The notes under the pieces: generated by a model
The model's database searches: none
What the model was told of the DNA's origin: nothing
Seen by the model: the letters and a program-made list of their open reading frames with translations, nothing else
Translations under genes and position numbers: made by a program
Part shown: one piece after another, positions 17,822 to 48,183 of the stretch
How positions within the stretch are numbered: position 1 is the first letter of the stretch
Layout of the letters: each line of letters opens with the position of its first letter
Source: Pseudopyrenochaeta lycopersici
Lineage: Eukaryota; Ascomycota; Dothideomycetes; Pleosporales; Pseudopyrenochaetaceae
DNA length: 64,000 bases
Assembly (NCBI GenBank): GCA_003313425.1
Contig: NHZP01000003.1
Span: forward strand, 2,232,001 to 2,296,000
Direction of reading: 5' to 3'

Positions 17822-19358
17822 TTAGTATTTAGTTTACTAACCTCGCGCTTATCTGCATATAGTAATTTGTTATAGTATACTTAAGATAAGGCGGTAGATA
17901 AGCCTCGCTAGTATGCGACGCTAGCACTCTTTTAATATACTATAAAACCTATCCTACTCTTCTTTAGCAGCACTATAATTATTATATTAAGGATAGAATT
18001 TATATATACGCTTCTTAAGATACTACTAGAGGTGCTTAATTAGGTTAAAGTTAGGTAAGTACGCTAGCTAGTTAATAGTAGTAATATAGTACTTATAGAG
18101 AAACTTACGCGTTACTATAGCTGTATAGATGCGCGCGTTATCTTATATAAATAGCTGTGTATAACGCTAATAAGGTAGAAGGCCCTTTATTAAGGCTTAA
18201 ATATAACTTTAAGTAGAGTAGCTACCTTTTAGAGTATTAAAATCGCGCTCTATTATAATAAGCTTACTTCTCTGTACTTACTTATATTTATTTAACTATA
18301 TTAACGCCTATACTATCTATGCTAACGTGTCTCACAAGCGAGCGCCGCAGTCCAAAATACACCAAAAATCTTAAAAAATTGTCTCCTATATCTTAACGTT
18401 AGCAATATTAAATACTCTGCAAACTTAAAGATAGCTTCTTATACTAATTTTAAAGTATTTACTAACTTTTTAGACTAAAAGGCTATATAATTCTATAGAT
18501 ATAGTATTTTTATCCTTAGCTTCTGATAATTTTATTATATCTTAAGAATTACTTAATGTATACGCTTATAACTTAAGAAATAATCTACATACAAGTATAA
18601 GAAGCTATCCCTAAGTTTTTAGATTATTAAGTATTACTAATGTTGAGATCTAGGAGACGAATTTTTAAGATTTTTGGTGTATTTTGGACTGCGGCGCTCG
18701 CTTGTCCGCGGCGCTCGCTTGTGAGACACGTTAGTTTCCTACTAGTACTATAGGTTTCTAGTATCTTTAGCTTCTATTTCTCCTATTAGTAGTAGAAAGC
18801 TTACTTTTAATTTTAGCCTAAGCCCTTCTAAACTAAGCACTTATCTAAGAACTTAAGCGTGTGCTAATACTATAGGAAGTACGAGTACTCCCTATAGAAC
18901 TTAAGGCGCCTTAACGTATACGCGTAGTTAAGCTTAGGACGTATTTTATAGTAAGATTTAGTTAGGCTTTATCCTTTAAGATACTTATATAATATGCGTA
19001 AGTAAGGTAGCTTTATTAAGGTGCTATCTAGATTTATAACTACTACTACTTTAGTAAGCTCTTTATACTTAATTTTTAGCTGCGCGCGTACTTTATAATA
19101 GATAAGCTTTTTCTAATAAAGTAATAGTATAGGTAGTCTACTACTGCAAGGTTTATCTACTATTATACTAGTTTAGTAATATTTTTTCCTAAGGTCGCGT
19201 ATGTAGCGTTAAGTACAGCTATACGTGTTAGTAACTTTAGTAACTATAGTACTAGCATGTAACCTCCTAATAATCTAATTCCGCTGCTAGACTGTTAAAT
19301 TAGGCCCTCTACGCGTATTTTAGTCTATTTCTTAAAGAATTCGGCGTTGTGGTGGCAT
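17822..19358 (-). pseudogene. Tc1-like transposase, RIPed beyond repair and interrupted
   Basis: The ATG at 19358 and the stop at 17822-17824 correspond to those of copy 1 (TGA turned into TAA). Tens of nonsense and missense transitions are visible by comparison with copy 1, and the frame is split at 18325-18731 by a MITE. It is useful only as a RIP comparison for copy 1. Confidence 0.88.
18325..18731. mobile_element. 407-bp pogo-like MITE nested in the Tc1-like element
   Basis: TA duplications flank it (18323-18324 and 18732-18733). Copy 1 has the empty site (ctatgctgg at the homologous position). Ends start ACGTGTCTCACAAGCG and run inward for about 55 bp as inverted repeats, including AGTCCAAAATACACC. 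The right end has an extra 17-bp direct copy of gcggcgctcgcttgtcc, so that motif is single on the left and double on the right. The interior is AT-rich and non-coding. The ACGTG terminus and TA target match the Fot1-type element at 850-2694. Confidence 0.92.
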
Positions 19359-22064: not shown

Positions 22065-24862
22065 TGTCAGATAAGAGGCATAAAAACTAAAGTATACGAA
22101 TACTGCATCATAGACGGTATCACCTATGTATTATCAATGTATTAGGTCTGTGTTTAAAAGGAGAGAGAATAGAACTAACAAACAGCACAATTAATTCTAA
22201 TCTACGATTATAACTAAAAAGATTTATTAAAATTCTAATAATTAAGAGTCTTACTAACCCTATAATAAGTAAGGACTATATCTTACGCAAATATTACTAG
22301 CGCACGCGACGCTATAATTATCCTTACTAACTATATAAACTACACGCTATAGTTACTATTACTAAAAGTAAAAGTAGAGTTCTATAATATATAGGTAATC
22401 GCAGACTCTAATAAAACTAGAGAACCTTTACTAGAACTAATCCCCCTAGTCCTACTATAATTAGCTAACTATGTACTAGCTGTAGTCTAATAACAGGCAC
22501 CTAGCGCGTTGTTAAACTCTTAAAGTAACTAGGTTAGATTATTAAGCTAGATAATAAGATTAAACCTATCCTAAACTAATATAACCCTAGCTACACTAAT
22601 AAAACTATTAGACTTATTACTTAAAAGCTAAGAAATATATAAGGCTAATTAAGATAACTATAAAGTATAACTTAAAGCTTATAAGATTAATAAGAAGAAA
22701 TATAATAGAGAATAGGCTAACTATTAGTTACTTATAATATATATTTAGAGTATAGTATTAGCGCATATTTAGTGTAACTACTACCTCTCTAGTACTATAA
22801 TTTACTAATAGATTATTAATATCTAAAGGATCGTAAGAATTAACCTACTTAAAGAACGCTAATAAGTATAAATAAGATATTATAATATATTAAAGCTAAT
22901 AAGGACCCTAGTAAACTAGGATATCTAGCTTACTAAATATAATTAAGTAGTAACTAATGCTAAGAGTAAAAGAGTTGTAGAGGTATAATATAATAATAAT
23001 ATTATATAAGATTTCTTATTAGTAGTAGAAAAGGTAGTACTTATATAAGTAACTACCTTCTTTAGCTAAGTAGCTAGAGGTAACTTAGACTATAATAAAA
23101 AAGAAATAATAAAACTCTTCTAAGAGTATATAAGCTACTCTTACTTATAAAAAGGTAATTAGAAGAGCGCTTTTACTACTAGAGACGCTATATACCCTAA
23201 TAGTAGTAAATCTAACTAAGGTATATAGAAAGACGCCTCTAGTATAGCTAAAGAAGTATTATTAGCCTTATAAGGTAAGAACTATAGTAGAACTTAAGGA
23301 AAATATAAATTTAAGTAAAGTAGTACTAGATATAGGTATTCCTCTCTAGAAGATATAGTAGTAGTTAAAGGTATAATATACTATACTTATAAATAGCGCT
23401 ATCATCTTTTTAATTATTTCTATCTAAATAAAGATAAAGCACCTGCGTAGTTTATACTAGATTTAAGGATAGCTAAACTTATTAAGTATAAAAGAAAGTA
23501 TAACCTAGAGCTAATTAAATTATTAGACTTAAAGCACTAATAATCTAAGACACTGCTAATTAAGAATTTATATATACTAACCTCTAAAGTTATAAAAGAT
23601 TAACTAGAAAGAAGAGTTATATTAATAATTAAAGTAGTATATACTGCGTTAGTATTCTTAATAAAGAACTAACTATATCTACTAAAGAATATATTTATCT
23701 TTAATTTAAGCGCAATAATACATATCTATAATATAGCGTAACATCTAACTTACTTTTATCTACTTATCCCTAGTAACTACGTATAGACAGGTAATATATA
23801 AATATAGATTAAAGAGTATAGTACTATATATATTAAAGTTAAGTTACTATATAGTATAGAGATACTCTAATTAGAGAACGTTACCTTCTACCTAAAAATT
23901 CTATATAACTTTATCTTATTTAGACTACTTAGATAGTAAGGAATTTAGTAGGATAATATAAATAAACCTATATTATTAAAGAGATAAGATAACTTAATTA
24001 TTATATACCTAATAGAAGTATATAACTAATAGGTATTTAAGTAATTAGATATAAATAATAGTACCTTTTATACCTAATTTAACTCTTAAACTAAGTAGTT
24101 ACTATAAAGAGTAAGTATAATACTATAGTATAAGCGCCTAGGGTATCTAAGGCCTGCAGTAATTAAATACCTTATCTAATAATCTAAGGGAGTGCGCATT
24201 TGTCAGGGTTCAATCCTTTCAGGTTACTAGACGCAGGTGAAAGGGTTCAATCCTTCCAAGTTACTAGACGCAAGTGAAAGGTAACGATCCTGCCAAGTTA
24301 CTAGACGCAGGTGAAAGGTAACTCTTACCTCTTACCTTTCACCTAGCTGGATAACTGGATCGGGACTAGCCTGCTCTAGCTCATGTATATAGGCAGCACC
24401 TCTCCCCCGAAGGTGAGAGGTATCTGCTATTTTGCCCATTTCCTTTTAAATTGAGTTTCTTCAACTAAGACCGTCCTAACTGTGCGTGTTGACTGCCTTA
24501 CAGCATTAAAGGCGTTACTATAGTTAAGTATAACGCATATAAGAGAGCTAAATTAAAGCGCAGGATCTGCAGAGAACCTTAACTAAGTAAAGAAGGACTA
24601 GGAGAATAAATCGCGATTAACTTTTATAACTACAAAGTTAGAAGCTACTTTAAGGAAAAGAGCTAAATACTTATTACTAACTAATTCTTAGTATATAACT
24701 AAGATTTCTACTTTACTAATAACAGACTAGTATAATCTATTATTTAGTTACTAGATAATTTTACTTACTTCCTCTATACGCAGTTTAATATTTCTATAAA
24801 AGTAATTAAGATAGATAATAAGATAGTAACTATTAAGCTAGAAGTTAAGTGTAACGTATAGT
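22065..24862 (+). mobile_element. Copia-D: truncated, RIPed Ty1/copia element
   Basis: The 5' LTR spans 22065-22240 (starts TGTCAGATAAGAGG, ends attctaata, a RIPed form of attctgaca). The primer site ATTAAGAGTCTTACT follows directly. Gag and pol follow on the plus strand as a wreck of TAG/TAA codons. Alignment by eye to copia-A and copia-B is good through gag, the gag-pol stop at 23601-23603 followed by CTAGAA, the protease, and the gag-pre-integrase and integrase region. Homology stops at about 24862 in the integrase, so RT, RNase H and the 3' LTR are missing. A solo LTR is inserted at 24201. Confidence 0.8.
24201..24502 (+). repeat. Solo LTR of the gypsy G2 family inside copia-D
   Basis: 302 bp, TGTCAGGGTTCAATCC to GACTGCCTTACA, with a perfect 5-bp duplication GCATT (24196-24200 and 24503-24507). 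It holds three tandem copies of a roughly 37-bp unit containing TTACTAGACGCAGGTGAAAGG, like the 302-bp LTR at 33707-34008. The copia-D integrase sequence continues on both sides, which proves insertion into it. Confidence 0.95.
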
Positions 24863-34439: not shown

Positions 34440-36769
34440 GCAAAACTTTTTAGATACCTTCGTCGCCGCTAAGATACTCTTCTGCAGCTAGCCTATCCTT
34501 ATTAAGTAGTAACTAATTTGGAGGCATGCAATAAGTAGGTGGCTTAGGCTTATTAGGCTGTCGCTAATAAAACAGATAAGCGTTGTAGTTGTTAGGGTAC
34601 TTAGTCGCCGGGTGCTAGGTAGGTTTCAGGTATCTAGTCTATTTAATCAGGTACTGCCACTCGCGCTTTCGGCGGCCTTTAACGCTAGTTTACTAGCAAT
34701 TAAGAAAATTATTAATAAGCTACTTATCTTAAACCTCGCTATTAAGATTAATTACCTTAACAGCTACTAGCTAAGCTAGCGCTTAATCTAGAAGCCCTTT
34801 CAAGGGCGCAGGCTAAAGAAGCTTAAGGTAAAATACAGGAAAAACTCCGCTGCCTAACATGTCTGGTAGAAGGTCTAATTAATACGCCCAGCCGTCATAC
34901 ACAACTCTCGTAACACTATAAGGCCCTACCTACTTAAGGTCTAGCTTCTTTAATTCCTGTTTAGTAGACTAATTAATTGTATTAACTATAACTTAGTCTC
35001 TAACAGCGTACTTTAGCACTAATTAGTAAGAGGTGTTAGCGTAGTAAGCTTATTCTTATTAAGCCTATAGCATTTATTCTTATAAATAAGTAACTAGGTC
35101 CGCGTAGGTGTTTATAAGCTTATCTGCCTGGATTTTATTACTAGCTACGGCGCTACTAAGCTTTTCGTCGCGGTTTTCCCCTGGGTGTATGCTACTACAA
35201 GGGTAATATCTAAGATCTGTAAAGAATAGCGTTATGCCTGTAGAGGCGTTAACTGTATCGTTAGCCTAAAACTTAGTAATGTAAAGCTAGGCAGCCTAGT
35301 TAGTTTGTGCGTAGTTAATATACTAATAAAGATAAATTTCTAAGGCTTAATTTACCTACTTAGTCTGCCTATCTATTTTAGGGTAATAGGCTGTTAATAA
35401 GCGCTGTTAGATACGCAGTCGCTTACAGACCCGCCTCCAAAACTAACTAACGAAATTTGAACTACAGTTAGAGATAATACTAAGGGGAATGCTATGCAAT
35501 TTAAAGACCTCTATAAAGCACCTAGCAGCTTCAGCTGCGGTACAGCCATACGTAGGGAAAAAGTGCTGTCTTTTTATAAGGCGGTCTATAATAACGAGGA
35601 TATTCTTAAAAGTACGGCTATCTAGCTAAGAGGCAGGTAAATCTTAAATAAAATTAACCAAAATTTCCGTCCAGCGTCCATAAGGCACTGGCAGTAGCCG
35701 CAAGTAACTATGCTTGCCGTCCCGAGGGCTTTTAGTTGTCATAAACCATTCCAGGTTCTTATGGTCCGTTATCACCTGTATTGGTTAAGAAGAGCCTATA
35801 AGTTCAGGCTCCTATTCCTTAAATGCCCGTATAATTACTATAAGTTTAAGATTATAGATGTCGTAGTTACATTCTGCTAGAGAGTGTTTCTTTAAAAAGA
35901 AAGCAACAGGTTATAGGACGTCCTTATTATTATATTACTTTATAACTCTGCCTAATACTTATCCTAACGCATTAGTAAAGATGTAGATTTACTTAGCAGG
36001 ATTAAAATGCTTTAACACTACGCCTACACGAAATGCTGCTTTAAGAGCCTTAAAAGCTTTTACTTCTTCCTCCCCCTATATAATTAGCTTATAACGAACC
36101 TTCTTATAGGTAGGTTTATTAGGATTGCTACTTTTCTTTTCTACAACAGTAGCCTTAATAAGGCGTGTGAGTAGTAACGCTATCTTTAAGTAGCCTTTAA
36201 TAAAGCGCTAGGAGAAGCTAGTGTACCTAAGGAAAGCGAGCACATCTTAGGCAGTCTTTAGTGTTTCCTATTGCTGTACAGCCTTAATCTTCTTAAGGTT
36301 AATTTTAATGCCCTTATTTATAATTATTATACCTAAGAACTTAATACAGTCTATATAAAATTCTGATTTGCGTAAGTCTACATAGAACCCTTTTTCCTTA
36401 AGGCGCGTAAGCACCTTTTTTATATGCTCTATGTAGGCTTCTACTAATTCTAAGAAAACTAAGATATCGTCTAGATAGGCAGTATAAAACTTATTAAGGT
36501 ACTTAAAAAGAGCGCTGTTAATTACCCTTTAAAACGTGGCTAGAGTATTATAGAGGCTTATAGGCATCACGCGGTATTAATAAGTGCCCTAACGCGTAGA
36601 GAAGGCAGTAAGCTACTCTAAACTAGGCTTTATGCGAATTTAATAAAAAGCGTGCATAACATTAAATTTAGAAAAGATAACAGCTTTATTAAGCTTAGCT
36701 AAAGTCTTGCAGAAGAAAGGAATTAGGTATTAATCCTTAATAGAGGCTTTATTAAGGTCTTAATAATCT
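34440..36769 (-). pseudogene. Gypsy G2 pol: RT (C-terminal part), RNase H, integrase remnants
   Basis: On the minus strand the RT catalytic box is clear near 36470-36490 (TAYLDDILVF), followed by KVLTRLKEKGFYVDLRKSEF and FLGIIIINKGIKI. RNase H follows (TNAxG-VLG near 35950, then VITDHKNLE near 35760), then integrase and C-terminal sequence to about 34500. Stops are RIP-type. RT is interrupted at 36769 by copia-A and resumes at 42013 with the CVD motif. Confidence 0.82.
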
Positions 36770-36943
36770 TGTCAGATACAAGCAGCGATCGTACGCGATA
36801 CAGCATTGTAGCACAAAGCTCGGGTGTAACCACTTGGCACACACACACTACATAAAAAGGAAAAAAATAGCAAAGAACTTAATGATGAATACAATGAAAA
36901 ACCTATCAACATACCTCATCGCATTTGAGCATTCTATCTGACA
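36770..36943 (+). repeat. Copia-A 5' LTR
   Basis: 174 bp, identical by eye to the 3' LTR at 41839-42012. TG...CA ends, with an imperfect TCAG-CTGA terminal inverted repeat. Confidence 0.95.
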
Positions 36944-36956
36944 ATTAAGAGTCTCA
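36944..36956 (+). promoter_or_regulatory. Copia-A primer-binding site, probable internal tRNA-Lys priming
   Basis: ATTAAGAGTCTCA starts directly after the LTR. Its complement, GACTCTTAAT, has the form of the anticodon loop and stem of tRNA-Lys(CUU) rather than a tRNA 3' end, suggesting half-tRNA priming as known for Drosophila copia and Candida Tca2. The same word follows the LTRs of copia-B and copia-D. Confidence 0.55.
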
Positions 36957-36980
36957 CTGTCTCAATTACACTCTGAAACA

Positions 36981-38228
36981 ATGTCGCTGTCGACAATGCG
37001 AGAACCAACCGTACTCCTAATGGACTACACGACGTACACGCCATGGCTGCAACAGCTAGAAACGCGATGCGTCTCCCTTGACGTGTGGGAACAGATAGAT
37101 CCTACTCAAAATACTCCTCTGAAAACGAAACCAAGAATCCCAACCGAGCCAGACATCACGAAGTACGAGAGAAAGACGACGCTTGGTATCGACGACAATG
37201 GAGCACCTCTGCGACCAGAGGCCCCGTCCGAGCTCTCAACAAACGGCCTCAAGGCGTGGAAGGAGGACACCGACTTCTACAAACTCCGCCTTGAGTCATA
37301 CAAGATAGCAGACAGAGACTATCGCGAAGAACGGGCGAATATGGACAAAGTGGTGGTATATATCCAACAATCAGTATCACCCCACCTCATGAAGAACTGC
37401 TGTAAGCCAGGTGAACCAATTCGAACGTGGCTCATCAGCCTGAAACAAACCGTCGGAATAGACGCCGAAGAAGAACGGTTGCGAGCACGTCACCGATACC
37501 TAGCCGCCCTCAAACCAATGAGACAGCCCGGGAGTTGGGACACCTGGCTCTCGGAATACGACCACGCCGCAACGAACGCGGAGACCGAAGGGGTCGCTGA
37601 AATACAGAATATACAAGATATCGTACAAGACTTTCTTGACTCAGTCATGAAGATAGCACCAACCTGGGCAACGACATTCCAGGACTATGGTCGGCGAGAA
37701 CAAAATATGACTCGCAAAGAAATGATGAAACGCTTCCGAGAACACATGAGCAAGTACCACCCTTTAAAGGGGAAGCAGCAGAGGGGCGCCTTTACTGTAG
37801 GGAACACCTCATTTCTCGCTGCTGGTGGTGAATCCACCCCGGGCACTGACAGGGACGCCTCTCACGTTGCCGATAGCGCACCATCCACTCCAACCACACA
37901 GGGGAGTCGGGGAAGACCTCGTCAAAAACGAACTTTTGGTCAAAATACCATATCCAAGCAGTCCTCAACAGGGGATACAGCGGCAGCTGAAGGAGTAAAA
38001 TGCCCTGCTTGTGAACAACGCCATGGACTAGAGAATTGTTACTATGTCCACACAAATAAAGCACCAGAGTGGTTCACACCTCGCTCAGGAATCGCAGCGA
38101 TGGTAAGGCACCGACTGGAACATGACGCTGACCTGCAAGAACAGCTTAGGAGCGGGAAAAGAGCTCGCACAAAAACACCAACCATCAAAACGTCAACGTC
38201 TCAGACACCCGAAATGTCTACGGAGTGA
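36981..38228 (+). CDS. Copia-A Gag (nucleocapsid-like) protein
   Basis: 415 codons, ATG at 36981 just downstream of the primer site, ending at TGA 38226-38228. The N-terminal half has the copia Gag fold signature: a WLQQLETRC-like start, then VVVYIQQSVSPHL and a RTWLISLKQTVG helix region (UBN2-like). Near the C-terminus a CPACEQRHGLENCYYVH segment is a C-x2-C-x3-H-x4-C-type knuckle, a variant zinc knuckle for RNA binding. It would form virus-like particles in the cytoplasm. The tail SQTPEMSTE leads into the stop codon, which is followed by CTAG; pol continues in the same frame. Confidence 0.92.
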   Translation: MSLSTMREPTVLLMDYTTYTPWLQQLETRCVSLDVWEQIDPTQNTPLKTKPRIPTEPDITKYERKTTLGIDDNGAPLRPEAPSELSTNGLKAWKEDTDFYKLRLESYKIADRDYREERANMDKVVVYIQQSVSPHLMKNCCKPGEPIRTWLISLKQTVGIDAEEERLRARHRYLAALKPMRQPGSWDTWLSEYDHAATNAETEGVAEIQNIQDIVQDFLDSVMKIAPTWATTFQDYGRREQNMTRKEMMKRFREHMSKYHPLKGKQQRGAFTVGNTSFLAAGGESTPGTDRDASHVADSAPSTPTTQGSRGRPRQKRTFGQNTISKQSSTGDTAAAEGVKCPACEQRHGLENCYYVHTNKAPEWFTPRSGIAAMVRHRLEHDADLQEQLRSGKRARTKTPTIKTSTSQTPEMSTE

Positions 38229-38234
38229 CTAGAG
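38226..38234 (+). promoter_or_regulatory. Gag-pol stop codon in UGA-CUA readthrough context
   Basis: The only stop between gag and pol is TGA, directly followed by CTAGAG; pol is in the same frame (38229 is divisible by three with the YVDD codons). UGA followed by CUA is the established high-readthrough context of eukaryotes, including fungal genes with cryptic peroxisomal extensions. Copia-B has TGA-CTA-GAA at the homologous point (46866-46858) and copia-D has TAA-CTA-GAA (23601-23609, a likely RIP change). This fits Gag to Gag-Pol ratio control by readthrough. Confidence 0.82.
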
Positions 38235-41200
38235 GGACGGAAGATTTCAACGATTAATGCTGCCTTAACTGCTGCATCATTTCGAGCAGAAGCTTCAGAC
38301 TATCCACTGAGGCACTCGTTTATTTTGGACTCAGGATCCACGATACACATCACGAACGATCGTAACCGAGTCCGAGACCTCAGTCCGCCTACGGCTGCAG
38401 ACTGTATTTGGGCCGGAAATACACGGATCTGGATACAAGGATACGGATCAGTCCTACTCGACCTCATCGGACCGAACGGGCCGACTAAACTCGAACTGCG
38501 CAACGTAGCCTGGTGTCCAGACATCCTGTGTAATTTGGTCTCTTTTAGACTACTCAGACAGCAAGGGATGTGGTGGGACAACCAGAGTGACCCTACTGCT
38601 CTGAAGAGACGGGATAACACTACAATCACACACCTGAAGGAGGCACATGGCCAATGGATACTCGAACACCAGGACAAGGGCGAAGCCGCCTTCTTCACGA
38701 AAGCAATCAACTCCCGCACCAAGCGATCAGCACAGAAGGCCGACGCCATGCGGTGGCATAGGCGAATGGGACACCCAGGACCAGCAGCAATCGAGCACTT
38801 AGTCCAACAATCTGAGGGGGTGCGCATCAAAGGAATCACCACTGTACAATGCAACGCATGTGGAAGAGCCAAGACTAAACGCCAGATAAGACGCACACCC
38901 CGAGTACACGACCAAGGGCCTGGGGAAAGACTCGCTATTGACTTCCACACGTACGAGGAAGGAAGTTCAACAAAAGAGAAGAGTCAGATGCTAGTTACTG
39001 ATCGGTACTCTGGTTTCATGTGGGATTTCTACTTCAAGGACAATCGACTCGGAAAGTCCATTATCGGGTTCCTGGATATCATCGTCCGCTTCCTGAAGAA
39101 GCAGTACAACATTACAGTCAAGGTCATCGAATGCGACGGAGAGATCGCGACTACTAAACCCGAAGTTTCAAGATGGTGTACCGCGCGCTCAATTCGATTG
39201 GAGCCTTCCGCCCCAGACACTCAATCCCAGAACGGTGGAGCTGAACGCTCAGGGGGTGTGGTAAAAGACAAATCGCGCACGATACGATTAGACGCAAACC
39301 TACCATGGGAACTGTGGCCAGAGATCGTACGAGCAGCAGTGTACCTATACAATCGAACGCCAAACTACTCAAACGCCTGGAAATCACCCTACGAAGTTTT
39401 CTTCACTACGGCAGCCCTGTACGATGGCATAATTACCTCCCCGCGGAAACCGAATCAAGCCCATCTTAAGGCATACGGTTGTAAGGCATTCGCCCTTACC
39501 GACGATACACTTCGAGGCAAATCGCGACTCCAACGTCTCGACCCCAGAGCATGGATAGGATACCTCGTTGGATACCGATCCTCCAATATCTACAGAATCT
39601 GGATTCCATCCATGGCCAAAGTAATCAGCACTCGAGATGTAGTGTTTGATGAAGAATTAATATTTGACGGGAAGACGGAAGACCTTATGGACAACCTTAT
39701 GCACAGCACGCTAAACGAGATAGCTGCATGGATGAGGACAGTTGAACTGCCAGAACCAACCCATGAGGAACCAGAGACCCAAACGTTTTATGAAGACGAC
39801 ACCATTCAAGACTCTGAAACGACCCAGCAAGGTAACCAACCGGGTTACTATCAAGGGAGGAGGATCAACTACACCTACCCCTCTCCGCCAACTACTCCGC
39901 CGCCAGTAGCTCTGCTTACGCAACTTTTATCTGGCGAGCATCAAGGAGATAGCCAAACAACATCTGGCTCATCAAAAACGATTCCTTGGGAAGCGGCCTT
40001 TATAGCGGGCACCCAAGCAGGGCACGTTGGAACCCACAATGGGAAGATAATCGACAAGGCCCAGATGAAGCGAATGTTGGCCCAAGGATTAAAGCCACAT
40101 CAAAGCGAGTTACCGCCGCTGCCAACTTCTCACACAGGAATTGAGAAACATCCTCTCTGCGAATGGTTCAAGGAAGCTGAGAAAGAGCACCTTAAAAGCC
40201 ATCACAAGATGAAATCATGGTCCGAAGTGCCAATAAAGAAGATCAAACTGACAAGACAACAGATCCTCGATTGTATGTGGGTGTATACCTACAAACTAGA
40301 CAAGAACCATCACTTGCTGAAGTGTAAGGCGCGACTCGTCGTCCGAGGTGACCAACAAAGGAATATTACCTCACAAGACACTTACGCAGCTACTCTCGCC
40401 AGCCGTTCATTCCGAATGCTGATGGCAATAGCAGCTCACTACAATCTGGAGCTCAAGCAATACGATGTCACGAACGCCTTTGTCCACGCAACCATGGATC
40501 AAGAAGTATACATGAGAATGCCCCACGGCTACCGAAAGCCCGGAACGATACTCCAGGTAAACAAGGCTTTATACGGTCTCCGAATCTCCCCTCTCCTCTG
40601 GCAAAAGGAATTCACATCAACCCTCAAGAAACTTGGCTTTCAGAACGTCCCTCACGAGCCATGCTGCCTAATTAAAGACGGAATTATCATATTCTTCTAT
40701 GTCGACGATATCATTCTTGCATACAGCAAGCAGAAGGAGACTGAAGCCCAGCAAGCGATTCAACATCTTAGAGACAAGTACTCTATCACAGGTGGAGATG
40801 ATCTTCAATGGTTTCTTGGAGTTGAAGTCATTAGGAACCGAGAGCAGCGCAAGATCCAGCTATCACAAGCAGCATACGCGGACAAGATCAGCCGCTTAGT
40901 CGGCAGAAAAGACATCCGACATGACACTCCAATGGCAGCCATTGAACTAAAGCCCCGAGACGGCCTAGCTACTCCATCAGAAATCAACAAGTACCAACGC
41001 AAGATTGGATCTCTGCTATATGCAGCTGTTACAACCCGACCGGACATCGCCTTTGCAACATCAAGACTGGCCCGATTCCTTATGAACCCTGGCACTGAGC
41101 ACCATACAGCAGCTGACCGAGTTCTCCTTTACCTCCAAAGCACCAAATCAAGAGCCCTTGAGCTTGGTGGAGATGACTGTCTTGAAGTAGCGAGCGATGC

Positions 41201-41735
41201 CTCGTTTGCAGACAACACAATCGATAGAAAGAGCTCGCAGGGATACACAATCAAGTTATTCGGCGGTTTGATTGCTTGGAAAGCAAGTAAGCAAGATACA
41301 GTCACAACATCGACTACAGAAGCTGAGCTTCTTGCGCTATCACAAGTGGCAAAAGAAGCTATATTCATATCACGACTACTTAAGGAACTGCAAATCAATC
41401 TGCCTGAGGACACAATCACGATACAATGCGATAACACTCAAACCATCCGGCTAATCAATAATGAAGTCTCACGGCTGCAAACCAAGCTCCGGCATGTGGA
41501 CATTCACAATCATTGGCTGAGACAGGAGGTGTCAAGAAGAAGTATTCGGGTCATCCATGTCCAATCGGCTGACATGCTAGCTGATGGCTTTACAAAGGCG
41601 TTGCCAGCCAACAAATGGACACAGTTTCTAAGCCAAATGGGCCTGGTAGAACTCACAGGAAGCAGAGAAATAACAGCAGCACGCCTTGAAGAGATCCAAA
41701 GCCAAATTGAGAAGCTAGAGATCGAACAGGCGTAG
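38229..41735 (+). CDS. Copia-A Pol: protease, integrase, reverse transcriptase, RNase H
   Basis: 1168 codons in frame with gag after the UGA; there is no separate ATG at the start, so it is expected to be made as a Gag-Pol fusion of about 1584 residues. Aspartic protease: ILDSGSTIHI at 38322-38351. Gag-pre-integrase zinc region: WHRRMGHPG near 38755 and CNACGRAK near 38850. The integrase core has RLAIDFHTYEEG near 38930, ECDGEIATT near 39130 and NGGAERSGG near 39235. RT: MWVYTYKLDKNHHLLKCKAR near 40280 and YVDD at 40698-40709. RNase H: VASDASFADN near 41190, then STTEAELLALSQVAKEA near 41315. The length is normal for copia pol and no domain is broken. Confidence 0.95.
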   Translation, partial: LEGRKISTINAALTAASFRAEASDYPLRHSFILDSGSTIHITNDRNRVRDLSPPTAADCIWAGNTRIWIQGYGSVLLDLIGPNGPTKLELRNVAWCPDILCNLVSFRLLRQQGMWWDNQSDPTALKRRDNTTITHLKEAHGQWILEHQDKGEAAFFTKAINSRTKRSAQKADAMRWHRRMGHPGPAAIEHLVQQSEGVRIKGITTVQCNACGRAKTKRQIRRTPRVHDQGPGERLAIDFHTYEEGSSTKEKSQMLVTDRYSGFMWDFYFKDNRLGKSIIGFLDIIVRFLKKQYNITVKVIECDGEIATTKPEVSRWCTARSIRLEPSAPDTQSQNGGAERSGGVVKDKSRTIRLDANLPWELWPEIVRAAVYLYNRTPNYSNAWKSPYEVFFTTAALYDGIITSPRKPNQAHLKAYGCKAFALTDDTLRGKSRLQRLDPRAWIGYLVGYRSSNIYRIWIPSMAKVISTRDVVFDEELIFDGKTEDLMDNLMHSTLNEIAAWMRTVELPEPTHEEPETQTFYEDDTIQDSETTQQGNQPGYYQGRRINYTYPSPPTTPPPVALLTQLLSGEHQGDSQTTSGSSKTIPWEAAFIAGTQAGHVGTHNGKIIDKAQMKRMLAQGLKPHQSELPPLPTSHTGIEKHPLCEWFKEAEKEHLKSHHKMKSWSEVPIKKIKLTRQQILDCMWVYTYKLDKNHHLLKCKARLVVRGDQQRNITSQDTYAATLASRSFRMLMAIAAHYNLELKQYDVTNAFVHATMDQEVYMRMPHGYRKPGTILQVNKALYGLRISPLLWQKEFTSTLKKLGFQNVPHEPCCLIKDGIIIFFYVDDIILAYSKQKETEAQQAIQHLRDKYSITGGDDLQWFLGVEVIRNREQRKIQLSQAAYADKISRLVGRKDIRHDTPMAAIELKPRDGLATPSEINKYQRKIGSLLYAAVTTRPDIAFATSRLARFLMNPGTEHHTAADRVLLYLQSTKSRALELGGDDCLEVASDASFADNTIDRKSSQGYTIKLFGGLIAWKASKQDTVTTSTTEAELLALSQVAKEAIFISRLLKELQINLPEDTITIQCDNTQTIRLINNEVSRLQTKLRHVDIHNHWLRQEVSRRSIRVIHVQSADMLADGFTKALPANKWTQFLSQMGLVELTGSREITAARLEEIQSQIEKLEIEQA

Positions 41736-41828
41736 CTAGACGGCGATCAATGCTCCTTGTACACGACCTCGAGATTCACTAGAAGACAACGGAAGTGGTT
41801 CTTGTCCAGCTTGAAATGGTTTCCAAGC

Positions 41829-41838
41829 TGAGGGGGTG
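41829..41838 (+). promoter_or_regulatory. Copia-A polypurine tract
   Basis: tgagggggtg lies directly before the 3' LTR (41839). The same purine word stands next to the 3' LTR of copia-B as its complement (caccccctca, 43317-43326). Confidence 0.85.
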
Positions 41839-42012
41839 TGTCAGATACAAGCAGCGATCGTACGCGATACAGCATTGTAGCACAAAGCTCGGGTGTAACC
41901 ACTTGGCACACACACACTACATAAAAAGGAAAAAAATAGCAAAGAACTTAATGATGAATACAATGAAAAACCTATCAACATACCTCATCGCATTTGAGCA
42001 TTCTATCTGACA
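41839..42012 (+). repeat. Copia-A 3' LTR
   Basis: 174 bp, identical to the 5' LTR by eye. Followed by the AATCT target duplication, after which the G2 RT sequence resumes. Confidence 0.95.
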
Positions 42013-43155
42013 AATCTACGCAGACTTAGATACTACCGCTAGGTTTAGCGATAATAAGCAAGTTATTTTGTGCAGCAGAGGGTCCCTAGAAGATAAAATC
42101 TTAGGCCTCTATCTCCTAAATATATTACTTAATAGCTTTAAACTGTTTACTAGAAAATAGTCTTGCTTAATAATTAGGCACCTTAGCTCCTAGCTTAAGC
42201 TTAATCTTGTAGTTATGTTCTAAGTAATCTAGGAGCTTAGCCGCAGCTACTTTATTAAACACAGGAATAATTAAGGTATATTCCTTAAGCAGGTGCGGAG
42301 GCAGGATATTATTTAATAAGACTTCCTTAGGAGGGTCGAAGAACTTATTATAGTCCTTTTATGCCGCTACGCAACAGATTTTCTGTAACGCTCCTAGTAG
42401 TAAGCGCTAAACTATTATAAATAGAGGGTGGTTTTTTTATTTAGTAAACGCCTAAATAGCTCTTAGCGAGACGACCTTAATACCTACCGCAGGTTTAGTT
42501 TGCTAGTATAGTACTTAGTGTTTGTTGTCTAGCTTTACTAGGGCTGTAGTATCTAACTTTACCTATTGTTAGCTAGTCTTACCTTTATTCCTACTATCTA
42601 TAGAGGAACTAGGCTGTGTAGAGGCGTTAGGCGTAGCTCGCTCGCAGACGACTTATAGTATATGCGAGTATTACTAGCATTCTGTTTAGTAGTATGCGTT
42701 AGGGAATTTAATTATACCCTAACAGTAATTAAAGCGTAGTACGTGCAGTTTCCTCTAGCAGAATCCTAACACTAGGTTAAAGGCCCTATACTAGTTAAGA
42801 ATATAGGCGGAAGTATACTTAAAGTAGGAATTAATTTTTATATAGAATTTAACCCTGTAAGTAATAGATTCTAAAGCAACGCCTTTATATCCTTCGCATA
42901 TAATAGCTGTAATAAGAGAAATTAGTTAGAACCCCTAGGTAAGCTAGAGGAACCGCTGTAAGATAAAGTTTGTATCTGCCCTGTTATCTACTAATATCTG
43001 GGCGACGTAGGGGGCGTTTTCTTATTATCTAATTATGCTTAAGAAAGCAAACTAGTCTAGGCTGTCTAGACACAGCTTATCTTTCTAGACAGCCTGCGTA
43101 CGTCGCAGAAGTGCCTGCGCTACGGGCTTATGTATGCTGCCCTAGTAAGTAGTAG
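42013..43155 (-). pseudogene. Gypsy G2 pol: protease and N-terminal RT remnant
   Basis: Minus strand: the RT entry motif IIAKPSGSI-VCVD lies next to copia-A, matching the FVPKPDGTLRFCVD block, so copia-A split RT right after CVD. Further right, near 42960, a protease-like QILVDNRADTNFI occurs (LVDSGAD in live elements; S to N is a G-to-A change). RIP stops throughout. Copia-B inserted just upstream of the protease region. Confidence 0.75.
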
Positions 43156-46300: not shown

Positions 46301-48183
46301 TCGATCGCTGCAGGCCCTAGATGCCCTAGGCGCTTATGCTATAGTATTACACTTACTCTTTGTGGCGCCCGCTTGGTTCAAGAGTTGAATCGGGTATAAA
46401 AGGCACTGTCGTTTGCATCTGAATGCTTAAGTACCCATTGGTCGTGTGCTTCCGTCAGGTATGCGATAATTGAGTTGTCCTATCTCCGTAGTGTTGTTAG
46501 CTCTTGTTTATTATCCTACTAGATCCCCTGTCTTCTAAGTAGCCTGAATAACACTAGGTTACAGAGGAGGTTAGGACACCAAGCCACGTTATTAAGCCTT
46601 AGAGTATGCTTTCTTTCTGCTCCTTAGGTTTTGACGTACACTGTCCTATAGCCTTTAATCTAGACTTATGTATTACCTGCCTAAATACAGTCTCTTATTA
46701 CTGGCTCGCGAAGGTGTTCAATTCAATTAATGTTATTGCAGATGTGTGCGGTTGAGCCGGAGTTAAGGATGAATGCATTCTTAAGTGGGTATTCTCGACT
46801 ACTGGCATTGAACGTTGATGCGGCTATGACTGCTTCAGTAGTTACTATAACACGACCTTCTAGTCAATCTGTTAATAGGTCGGGAGTTTGTGATGTTTTA
46901 ATGCGCGGCGTAATCGATCGCGATGCGGAGGAAAGGCGCGGTTTCTTAGCCTCTAGGCTTGATTCCTGTATCGCCCTCTGTAAGTTATTATTATTATTAA
47001 TTTTGTACTGTACTAGTTTAGTGATACTTTAATTTGGCTTAAACTACTTAGGTGCCTTATTAGTATACACGTAGTAACAGTCTAATAAGTTGTAGCGCTG
47101 TCCATAAGCAGGATAATCATCTCTAGCTGCCGCTGTATTCCCAATCAGGAACTGCTTGGATTTGGTTATTTAACTATCACGTTTTCGTTTCTGCCTAGGT
47201 TTCCCCTGGCCGCCCTATAAAGGGGCAGATGGCGCTCTTTCCAACACACTCAGGGCGTCCCCATTTTATGTGCCCTGAACGGATGCACTATTAGAGACAT
47301 ATGATACTTCTCCCGCAGCGAAAGCGCTCTTCTGCGTGCCCTTTAATAGGTGGGATAGGCTTATGTGGTCGCGGAAGAGTTTTATCATCTTCTTCCTATT
47401 AATGGTCGTTCTGTTATATCTAGGACTAGAGAAGGTAGCTACCCATGTTGGGGCCACCTTTAAGACAGCGCCTAGGAAGTTATTTTTCACATCTTCTGTT
47501 TGCAGCACCTCGCTAACCTTTAGGGTTTCAGCTCAGGTTGCTGCTCGATCGTACTTGGTCAGCTATGTTTCCTAATTACTTAGGGTTCTTATTAGCCTGA
47601 GTGCAGCGTAGTACTTCTCTCGCGCTTTAGTTCGTTCTTCCTGTAGGTTAACACCTACTGTCTCCCAGAGGGAGGTTACCTATTCCCGGACTGACTTGCC
47701 CGACTCACAGCAGCTTAGTTGTAGATAAGGTAAGATAGTAGCTAGTATATGCTTGATCAGCTTCTTATACTTCGTCCTTTCTTCTTAATATTCCTTATCT
47801 AAGAGCTTATACAATTTAAGGTGTATCTTATAGTCATCGCGGTCCTCTTTATATACTTCCTATCCACTCTAGGAGAGTTCAGAGATCCTTGTTAGAATAG
47901 TAGCAGAAGGAATCTCCTCTTATTATGTTAGTTGCGTGTTTCCGCGCGTTTAAGAGCTTGACGTAGTACTCCTCGCTAAAACTATCGCTGCAGGTTAATA
48001 ATCAGCAATGTTTAGTAATCGTGGAACTGTTAGCTTCCGTTTCAGTTCTTCAGTACCTTCCAGGTCGACGAGGGGCCAGTTCCTTAATGATTCGCACTTC
48101 ATCTTAAACTGGCGGTACCAGGCCGTCCAGCTGTTGTAATCAGTTAGGACGACGGTCGCGTCCCTTGTGCTTAGGGTTGCCAT
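43330..48183 (-). pseudogene. Copia-B gag-pol, inactivated by nonsense transitions
   Basis: From the right: the Gag start is MATLSTRDATVVLTDYNSW at 48183, comparable to copia-A MSLSTMREPTVLLMDYTTY. Later comes VKNNFLGAVLKVAPTWVATF (near 47490). The gag tail SQTPDLLTD is followed by TGA-CTA-GAA at 46866-46858. The protease reads FILNSGSTAHI near 46770, with catalytic D changed to N (G to A). The RT entry MWVYTYKLDKHYRLIKCKAR is at 44817. RNase H reaches to 43330. Stops are mostly TAG/TAA at expected W/Q positions. Useful as an independent comparison for the copia-A gag-pol junction. Confidence 0.88.
46858..46866 (-). promoter_or_regulatory. Copia-B gag-pol stop, TGA-CTA-GAA
   Basis: On the minus strand the gag frame ends in TGA followed by CTAGAAGGT, and the pol frame (EYPLKNAFILNSGST) continues without shift. 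The surrounding residues match copia-A (LEGR after the stop in both). Confidence 0.8.

Follow-up and report, generated by a model that had tools for sequence, protein, structure and literature searches.

In the Ty1/copia retrotransposon copia-A of Pseudopyrenochaeta lycopersici, gag and pol share one reading frame whose sole interruption is TGA-CTA-GAG, and the TGA at position 38226 is very probably a programmed readthrough codon, which we consider the best explanation of the arrangement (positions refer to the window, i.e., the whole stretch of 64,000 nucleotides analysed here). Most ribosomes would terminate at this TGA and release Gag, whereas a minority would decode the UGA with a near-cognate tRNA, UGA-CU(A) terminating poorly in fungi, and would then continue in the gag frame to yield Gag-Pol. 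The occurrence of readthrough in the host, its rate and its role in the ratio of Gag to Gag-Pol are what we infer from the sequence. The shared frame, the single stop kept in five diverged families and the CT following in all 65 TGA loci point to readthrough rather than frameshifting, as the original prediction on this DNA had proposed. Readthrough also fits the conserved coding of pol from the stop on and the lack of any shared methionine, intron or nested structure in the family representatives.

Copia-A is a young Ty1/copia element with identical LTRs and a 5-bp target duplication. Its parts, together with the corresponding junctions of two further elements of the window, are the following:

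36765-42017, + strand: whole copia-A including the target duplications, delimited by the LTR pair and the AATCT duplication
36765..36769, no strand: target-site duplication AATCT, left copy, 5 bp, read from the sequence
36770..36943, + strand: 5' LTR of copia-A (TGTCAG...CTGACA), a 100% identical direct repeat of 174 bp
36981..38225, + strand: gag of copia-A (family F1), 415 aa, in a frame opening with the ATG at 36981
38001..38039, + strand: Cys-His stretch (CX2CX3HX4C) near the Gag C-terminus, labelled by inspection of the sequence
38226..38228, + strand: in-frame TGA separating gag and pol, codon 416 of the frame from 36981
38229..38231, + strand: CTA, putative 3' readthrough context; all six families begin this codon with CT, five having CTA and F2 CTT
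38229..41735, + strand: pol of copia-A, 1168 codons plus TAG, from the reading frame and Pfam
38328..38336, + strand: DSG at residue 34 of pol, whose first Met follows only at residue 114
41839..42012, + strand: 3' LTR of copia-A, a 174-bp direct repeat identical to the 5' LTR
42013..42017, no strand: target-site duplication AATCT, right copy, read from the sequence
46858..46866, - strand: copia-B junction TGA-CTA-GAA, reading TGACTAGAA, in a damaged copy of family F4
23601..23609, + strand: copia-D junction TAA-CTA-GAA, reading TAACTAGAA, in a damaged, F3-like copy

The frame from 36981 contains stops only at codons 416 (TGA, 38226-38228) and 1585 (TAG, 41733-41735), and the coordinates and bases originally given for it were confirmed. 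Membership of Ty1/copia is indicated by the LTR pair with its short target duplication and by the integrase upstream of RVT_2. Pol_BBD, gag_pre-integrs, SH3_retrovirus and RVT_2 matched pol above the Pfam cut-off and rve below it (E 0.0043), with gag_pre-integrs and rve lying upstream, followed by SH3_retrovirus and RVT_2, i.e., integrase before reverse transcriptase. The DSG at pol residue 34, which we take to be the protease active-site motif, is present in all of F1-F5. A programmed frameshift of the Ty1 type was not found in copia-A, pol lying in gag's own frame. Gag itself gave no Pfam match at E 0.01. While the usual retroelement Gag knuckle is CX2CX4HX4C, the Gag of the copia-A lineage carries CX2CX3HX4C in its place (38001-38039), and this stretch is common to the representatives of F1-F5. 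Elsewhere in the window, positions 18334-18705 hold an inverted repeat with 181-nt arms, 76% complementary and 10 nt apart.

Conservation of the junction had been claimed for three elements, and copia-A, copia-B and copia-D do represent three separate families (F1, F4 and F3-like, by inspection of the junction peptide), although copies within families are not independent. The bases at both further junctions proved correct, as did the in-frame pol of copia-B; copia-B and copia-D have a single frame through the junction, yet many further TAG/TAA stops.

To place these elements among their relatives, copia-A pol residues 1-227 were searched against the 62.7-Mb genome of the same assembly. The best 150 of 276 candidates were scored, so that copies are undercounted; the genome holds at least 151 matches to the pol N-terminus, 150 of them listed, one being copia-B. 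Thirty matches were read first (L001-L030, L001 being copia-A), and junction DNA was then read for 93 of a further 113 matches starting at query residue 1 or 2, whereas six matches starting later in the query were left out of the junction reading. Exclusion of L028, which ends before pol residue 10, reduced 123 loci to 122. All 122 loci keeping the junction carry a stop at the homologous codon (65 TGA, 57 TAA), neither TAG nor a sense codon occurring there, and with copia-B and copia-D included the stop is present in 124/124 junctions read (66 TGA, 58 TAA). CT directly follows in 65/65 TGA loci. Many copies appear capable of coding on both sides: 43 of the 150 listed matches have an uninterrupted pol frame of 1165 or 1168 codons, and 44 of the 65 TGA loci combine a gag free of stops over 395 codons or more with a pol that is open throughout the stretch read, 230 codons or more (F1 15/17, F2 6/11, F3 20/28, F4 1/7, F5 2/2). 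The bare presence of the nine bases TGACTAGAG, however, means nothing, because they occur at 300 places in the genome versus 401 for the reversed pattern and are thus not enriched.

The TAA of copia-D had been explained as a product of RIP acting on TGA. Consistently, TAA copies are more RIP-like than TGA copies, with a median TpA/ApT of 1.83 (range 0.99-2.11) vs 0.69 (0.56-1.72) and a median G+C of 0.364 vs 0.503, although the TpA/ApT ranges overlap and some TGA copies are RIPed too. Since RIP (C to T, G to A) only turns TGA into TAA and cannot remove the stop, RIPed copies add little. Moreover, copies are not independent and often identical within a family, so the unit of evidence is the family and not the copy count; independent support amounts to about five lineages, plus one distant family (F6).

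Some of the matches are clustered. Four RIP-damaged pol matches lie on one strand of G000:C38:246555-260283 with spacings of 4266, 4265 and 4520 bases, the first three of F1 type with equal score and the last of F2 type, which resembles a tandem array of damaged elements. In G000:C88:91567-99291 and G000:C73:200885-205716, F3 and F1 pol matches are spaced ~6.4 kb and ~3.5 kb apart within the contig, as in nests of young elements.

The 122 loci fall into five families, i.e., F1 (copia-A, 33 loci), F2 (23), F3 (44), F4 (copia-B type, 11) and F5 (11). Their representatives share 53-77% protein identity in the pol N-terminus and 40-54% in gag, the latter counted from the first Met of the frame and partial for F3, whose gag ATG is not clearly inside the stretch read. 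The least-damaged copies carry TGA in all five families, followed by CTA in F1, F3, F4 and F5 and by CTT in 23/23 copies read of F2, among them copies open on both sides. Hence, gag and pol form one frame with a single stop, which persists in diverged relatives whose gag and pol are both open, and the context is readthrough-prone throughout, with UGA-CUA in F1, F3, F4, F5 and F6 and UGA-CUU in F2. In the five representatives, the junction peptide consists of T-P, variable residues ending in an acidic one, the stop and L-E-G-R, where residues 1-4 (LEGR) and residue 6 after the stop are identical in all five. The G after CTA accordingly opens a conserved Glu codon. CUAG, put forward as the conserved context in the original prediction, is thus not invariant, and the kept core is UGA-CU(A). 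As to the claimed conservation of stop-CUA-GA, the stop (124/124) and the CT (65/65) stood, whereas F2 reads CTT and F6 CTA-TCA. A different context had been named as evidence that would count against readthrough; F2 has one, yet still with CT after TGA.

How much weight the CTA can bear was judged from codon sharing. The five representatives have 94 invariant residues in common, including 11 Leu, and the junction Leu has a codon common to 4/5 families, compared with at most three for the other ten. Among 61 invariant columns (residues with at least three codons), however, 12 share a codon in four and 5 in five families, and with 17/61 degenerate columns sharing a codon in at least four families, CTA alone says little. 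Selection on CTA was therefore rejected as a conclusion from codon sharing, the codon ranking top of the 11 Leu columns but being unexceptional among degenerate columns. It is the stop and its CU, rather than CTA, that carry the argument.

On the other side of the stop, the preceding codon is GAG, GAC, GAT, GAT and GAT in the representatives of F1-F5, and an acidic codon (GAN) stands there in the representatives of all six families as well as in the fission-yeast elements and Tca2 (GAA in both). In F1-F5 it may be kept by common descent, which would leave about four separate cases. The acidic codon could also reflect the Gag C-terminus and not termination, and we offer it as a second part of the signal by way of hypothesis.

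Sequence divergence around the stop was assessed by plain, ungapped proportions of synonymous and nonsynonymous differences (pS and pN) over ten family pairs. Median pS was 0.74 in the last 20 gag codons, 0.70 in pol 1-30 and 0.78 in pol 31-80, and the corresponding median pN was 0.34, 0.36 and 0.30, with the pair F3-F4 as exception in the last 20 gag codons (pN 0.56 vs pS 0.45). As pS is well over pN on both sides, the residues just after the stop are under coding constraint. In the comparison of stop and CUAG with synonymous divergence that had been suggested as a check, the stop is thus kept within this genome at a median pS of 0.70-0.78, but the sharing of CTA is not exceptional among degenerate codons.

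This constraint also speaks against an intron at the junction, and removal of the stop from a minor mRNA by splicing, or by A-to-I editing, is very unlikely. Splicing is known for retroelements, and in filamentous ascomycetes stop codons can undergo A-to-I editing; such editing, however, prefers an A after U, not after G. Using a simple consensus (donor, branch site, YAG), no intron candidate removing the stop in frame was present between -250 and +250 in the five representatives, so that the spliced stop named as a possible objection to readthrough did not materialize. A fresh start of pol after the stop, by reinitiation, an IRES or an internal promoter, is somewhat easier to imagine but still quite improbable. 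It would suit the Met at pol residue 20 in F3 and 13 in F4, and a minor promoter is described for the Tca2 junction in the available text of PMC2194720. With the first pol Met at residues 114, 151, 20, 13 and 114 in F1-F5, however, F1, F2 and F5 have none before the DSG at residue 34, and an AUG start would cost these three families the protease site. The identity of residues 1-4 and 6 directly after the stop argues against a start at an AUG.

Readthrough of the UGA driven mainly by long-range or 3' RNA structure is unlikely as well, albeit less so than the preceding options. In F5, the sequence just 3' of the stop is stabler than shuffles (MFE z -2.0 to -2.8), and in F1 one 80-nt window at +40 reached z -3.6. 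Just 3' of the stop, however, six of the seven representatives folded, F2-F4 among them, gave z between -1.3 and +1.9, and a codon-aligned alifold of the five families (z +0.19, +0.65 and +0.95) was no better than codon-column shuffles. The search for a downstream RNA stem, as had been proposed, thus revealed no nested structure common to the representatives tested within 150 nt, F5 and the one F1 window being the places that fold better than shuffles. Least probable of all, and hardly credible, is the idea that a dying master element acquired a nonsense mutation, which recent bursts then spread. Some families did indeed expand recently (16 F1 copies among the matches listed share identical pol N-termini), and RIP is able to keep, not remove, a stop. 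Nevertheless, the stop occupies the same codon in five families in spite of the divergence of their pol N-termini, in each of F1-F5 one copy or more is free of further stops on either side of the junction over the stretch read, and stop and next codon recur at the distant F6 junction. Furthermore, an intact member with one full frame, which the original prediction had named as contrary evidence, was not seen among the 122 loci.

Programmed readthrough at UGA-CU(A) remains our preferred reading, against which the following points have to be set: the CTT of F2, the unexceptional CTA, the lack of enrichment of the 9-mer, the folding of F5 and of one F1 window, an F6 copy reading TGA-ATA and the failure of the Tca2 reporter.

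Apart from F1-F5, an RVT_2 search revealed other copia families with uninterrupted frames of 1547-2106 codons, which, judged by length only, should contain gag and pol together. The rule that had been drawn for this copia lineage thus holds for F1-F5 and F6, but not for all copia elements here. F6, whose pol frame spans 1161 codons, is a copia family of which one copy was read (L124), with gag and pol in one frame and GAT-TGA-CTA-TCA between them. When up to 3 mismatches are allowed, its 30-base junction occurs at 8 places: 6 are exact, another has a single mismatch, and the last, with two, is the damaged copy that reads TGA-ATA. Pieces of F6 pol match Pol_BBD and rve, whereas the part of its gag read has no significant similarity to copia-A gag, and the pol N-terminus shares only 27% with copia-A over 83 residues around the protease site. 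The F6 integrase is 33% identical (86 bits) to that of a family with a 1581-codon frame and 25-27% (46-52 bits) to those of families with frames of 1547 to 1638 codons, compared with 22-25% for F1-F5, whose scores did not exceed 42 bits. Further long-frame families, with 1719-2106 codons or, in one case, 1556, scored 34-36 bits, no better than F1-F5. Lying nearer to one apparently single-frame family than to F1-F5, F6 suggests, but does not prove, a separate gain of UGA-CUA as the simplest reading; alternatively, the stop may be ancestral with later losses. The apparently leaky stop may have more than one origin in this genome.

A further copia family with a 1162-codon pol frame (L125, G000:C57:208700-210300) encodes pol at -1 with respect to the gag frame, the two overlapping by ~49 nt (nt 635-686), and a scan of nt 561-760 revealed no canonical X XXY YYZ slippery site. 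Either this genome contains a third way of arranging Gag and Pol, or the copy is damaged. No relatives of copia-A were confirmed in viral contigs or prokaryote genomes, as expected for a fungal element.

The UGA-CU(A) motif and its mechanism are already known from published work on fission-yeast Ty3/gypsy elements and fungal enzymes; what is new here is the copia lineage, a variant with CUU and perhaps a second gain within one genome. Should the interpretation be correct, some six nucleotides would suffice for fungal Ty1/copia elements to control Gag-Pol, and RNA structure would not be needed; Tca2, the only fungal copia precedent found in the openly licensed literature, differs in this respect. 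For Ty1/copia elements of filamentous fungi, that literature yielded no description of readthrough at UGA-CU. One could speculate, with rather more doubt than confidence, that UGA-CU(A) was adopted independently at least twice by copia in one genome (F1-F5 and F6) and, as a third case, by gypsy elements of fission yeast because fungal termination is leaky there, GAN-UGA-CUN possibly being a portable fungal Gag-Pol switch that works without RNA structure. Confirmation of two independent gains would illustrate the ease with which retroelements can acquire such a switch. The six families also offer a natural series for context effects on termination in filamentous fungi, including CUA vs CUU, G or U after CUA and three different acidic codons before the stop, with the single-long-frame copia families of the same genome as internal controls.

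That UGA-CUA promotes readthrough in eukaryotes, as had been assumed, is in line with two reports. UGA-CU is sufficient for readthrough in Ustilago maydis, and an A in third place adds to it in HeLa cells (PMC4207609), while UGA-CUAG is read through in mammals, about 12 nt of 3' sequence being enough (PMC4132726). The minimal UGA-CU motif of fungal and animal metabolic enzymes fits both the CTA and the CTT families; there, readthrough yields peroxisomal forms, whereas here it would set Gag to Gag-Pol (PMC4207609). The vertebrate genes OPRL1, OPRK1, AQP4 and MAPK10 likewise use UGA-CUA(G), but they are cellular genes with short extensions, and the G after CUA is part of their motif (PMC4132726).

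The parallel drawn with Candida Tca2 is a weak one. Tca2 is a copia element whose lineage gained its in-frame stop from single-ORF ancestors according to the available text of a yeast survey (PMC4022208), and it shares with the present elements the in-frame UGA between gag and pol and the acidic codon before it (PMC2194720, PMC4022208). Its oligonucleotide list, however, gives GAA before and AAA after the UGA, and its 300-nt junction showed no readthrough in S. cerevisiae in the accessible part of that study (PMC2194720). Tca2 has a purine-rich 3' spacer and a proposed pseudoknot, whereas here CTA or CTT directly follows the stop and there is no such spacer; the same source describes structure-dependent readthrough of the MuLV type with a 3' stem or pseudoknot (PMC2194720).

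The fission-yeast Ty3/gypsy elements Tj1, Tcry1 and Tosmo1-3 carry GAA-TGA-CT(A/G) between gag and pol, and their authors infer readthrough, related lineages having a single ORF or a -1 frameshift in the text available (PMC10085805). As in copia-A, an acidic codon precedes the in-frame TGA and CTA (there also CTG) follows it, the third base of the Leu codon being A or G there and A or T here; the elements described here are, however, Ty1/copia by RVT_2 and domain order and live in other hosts (PMC10085805). Finally, RtPc3 and RtPc4 of Paracoccidioides are Ty1/copia elements like copia-A, but with one uninterrupted ORF in the accessible description, and thereby resemble, by frame length, the other copia families of this genome (PMC4427930).
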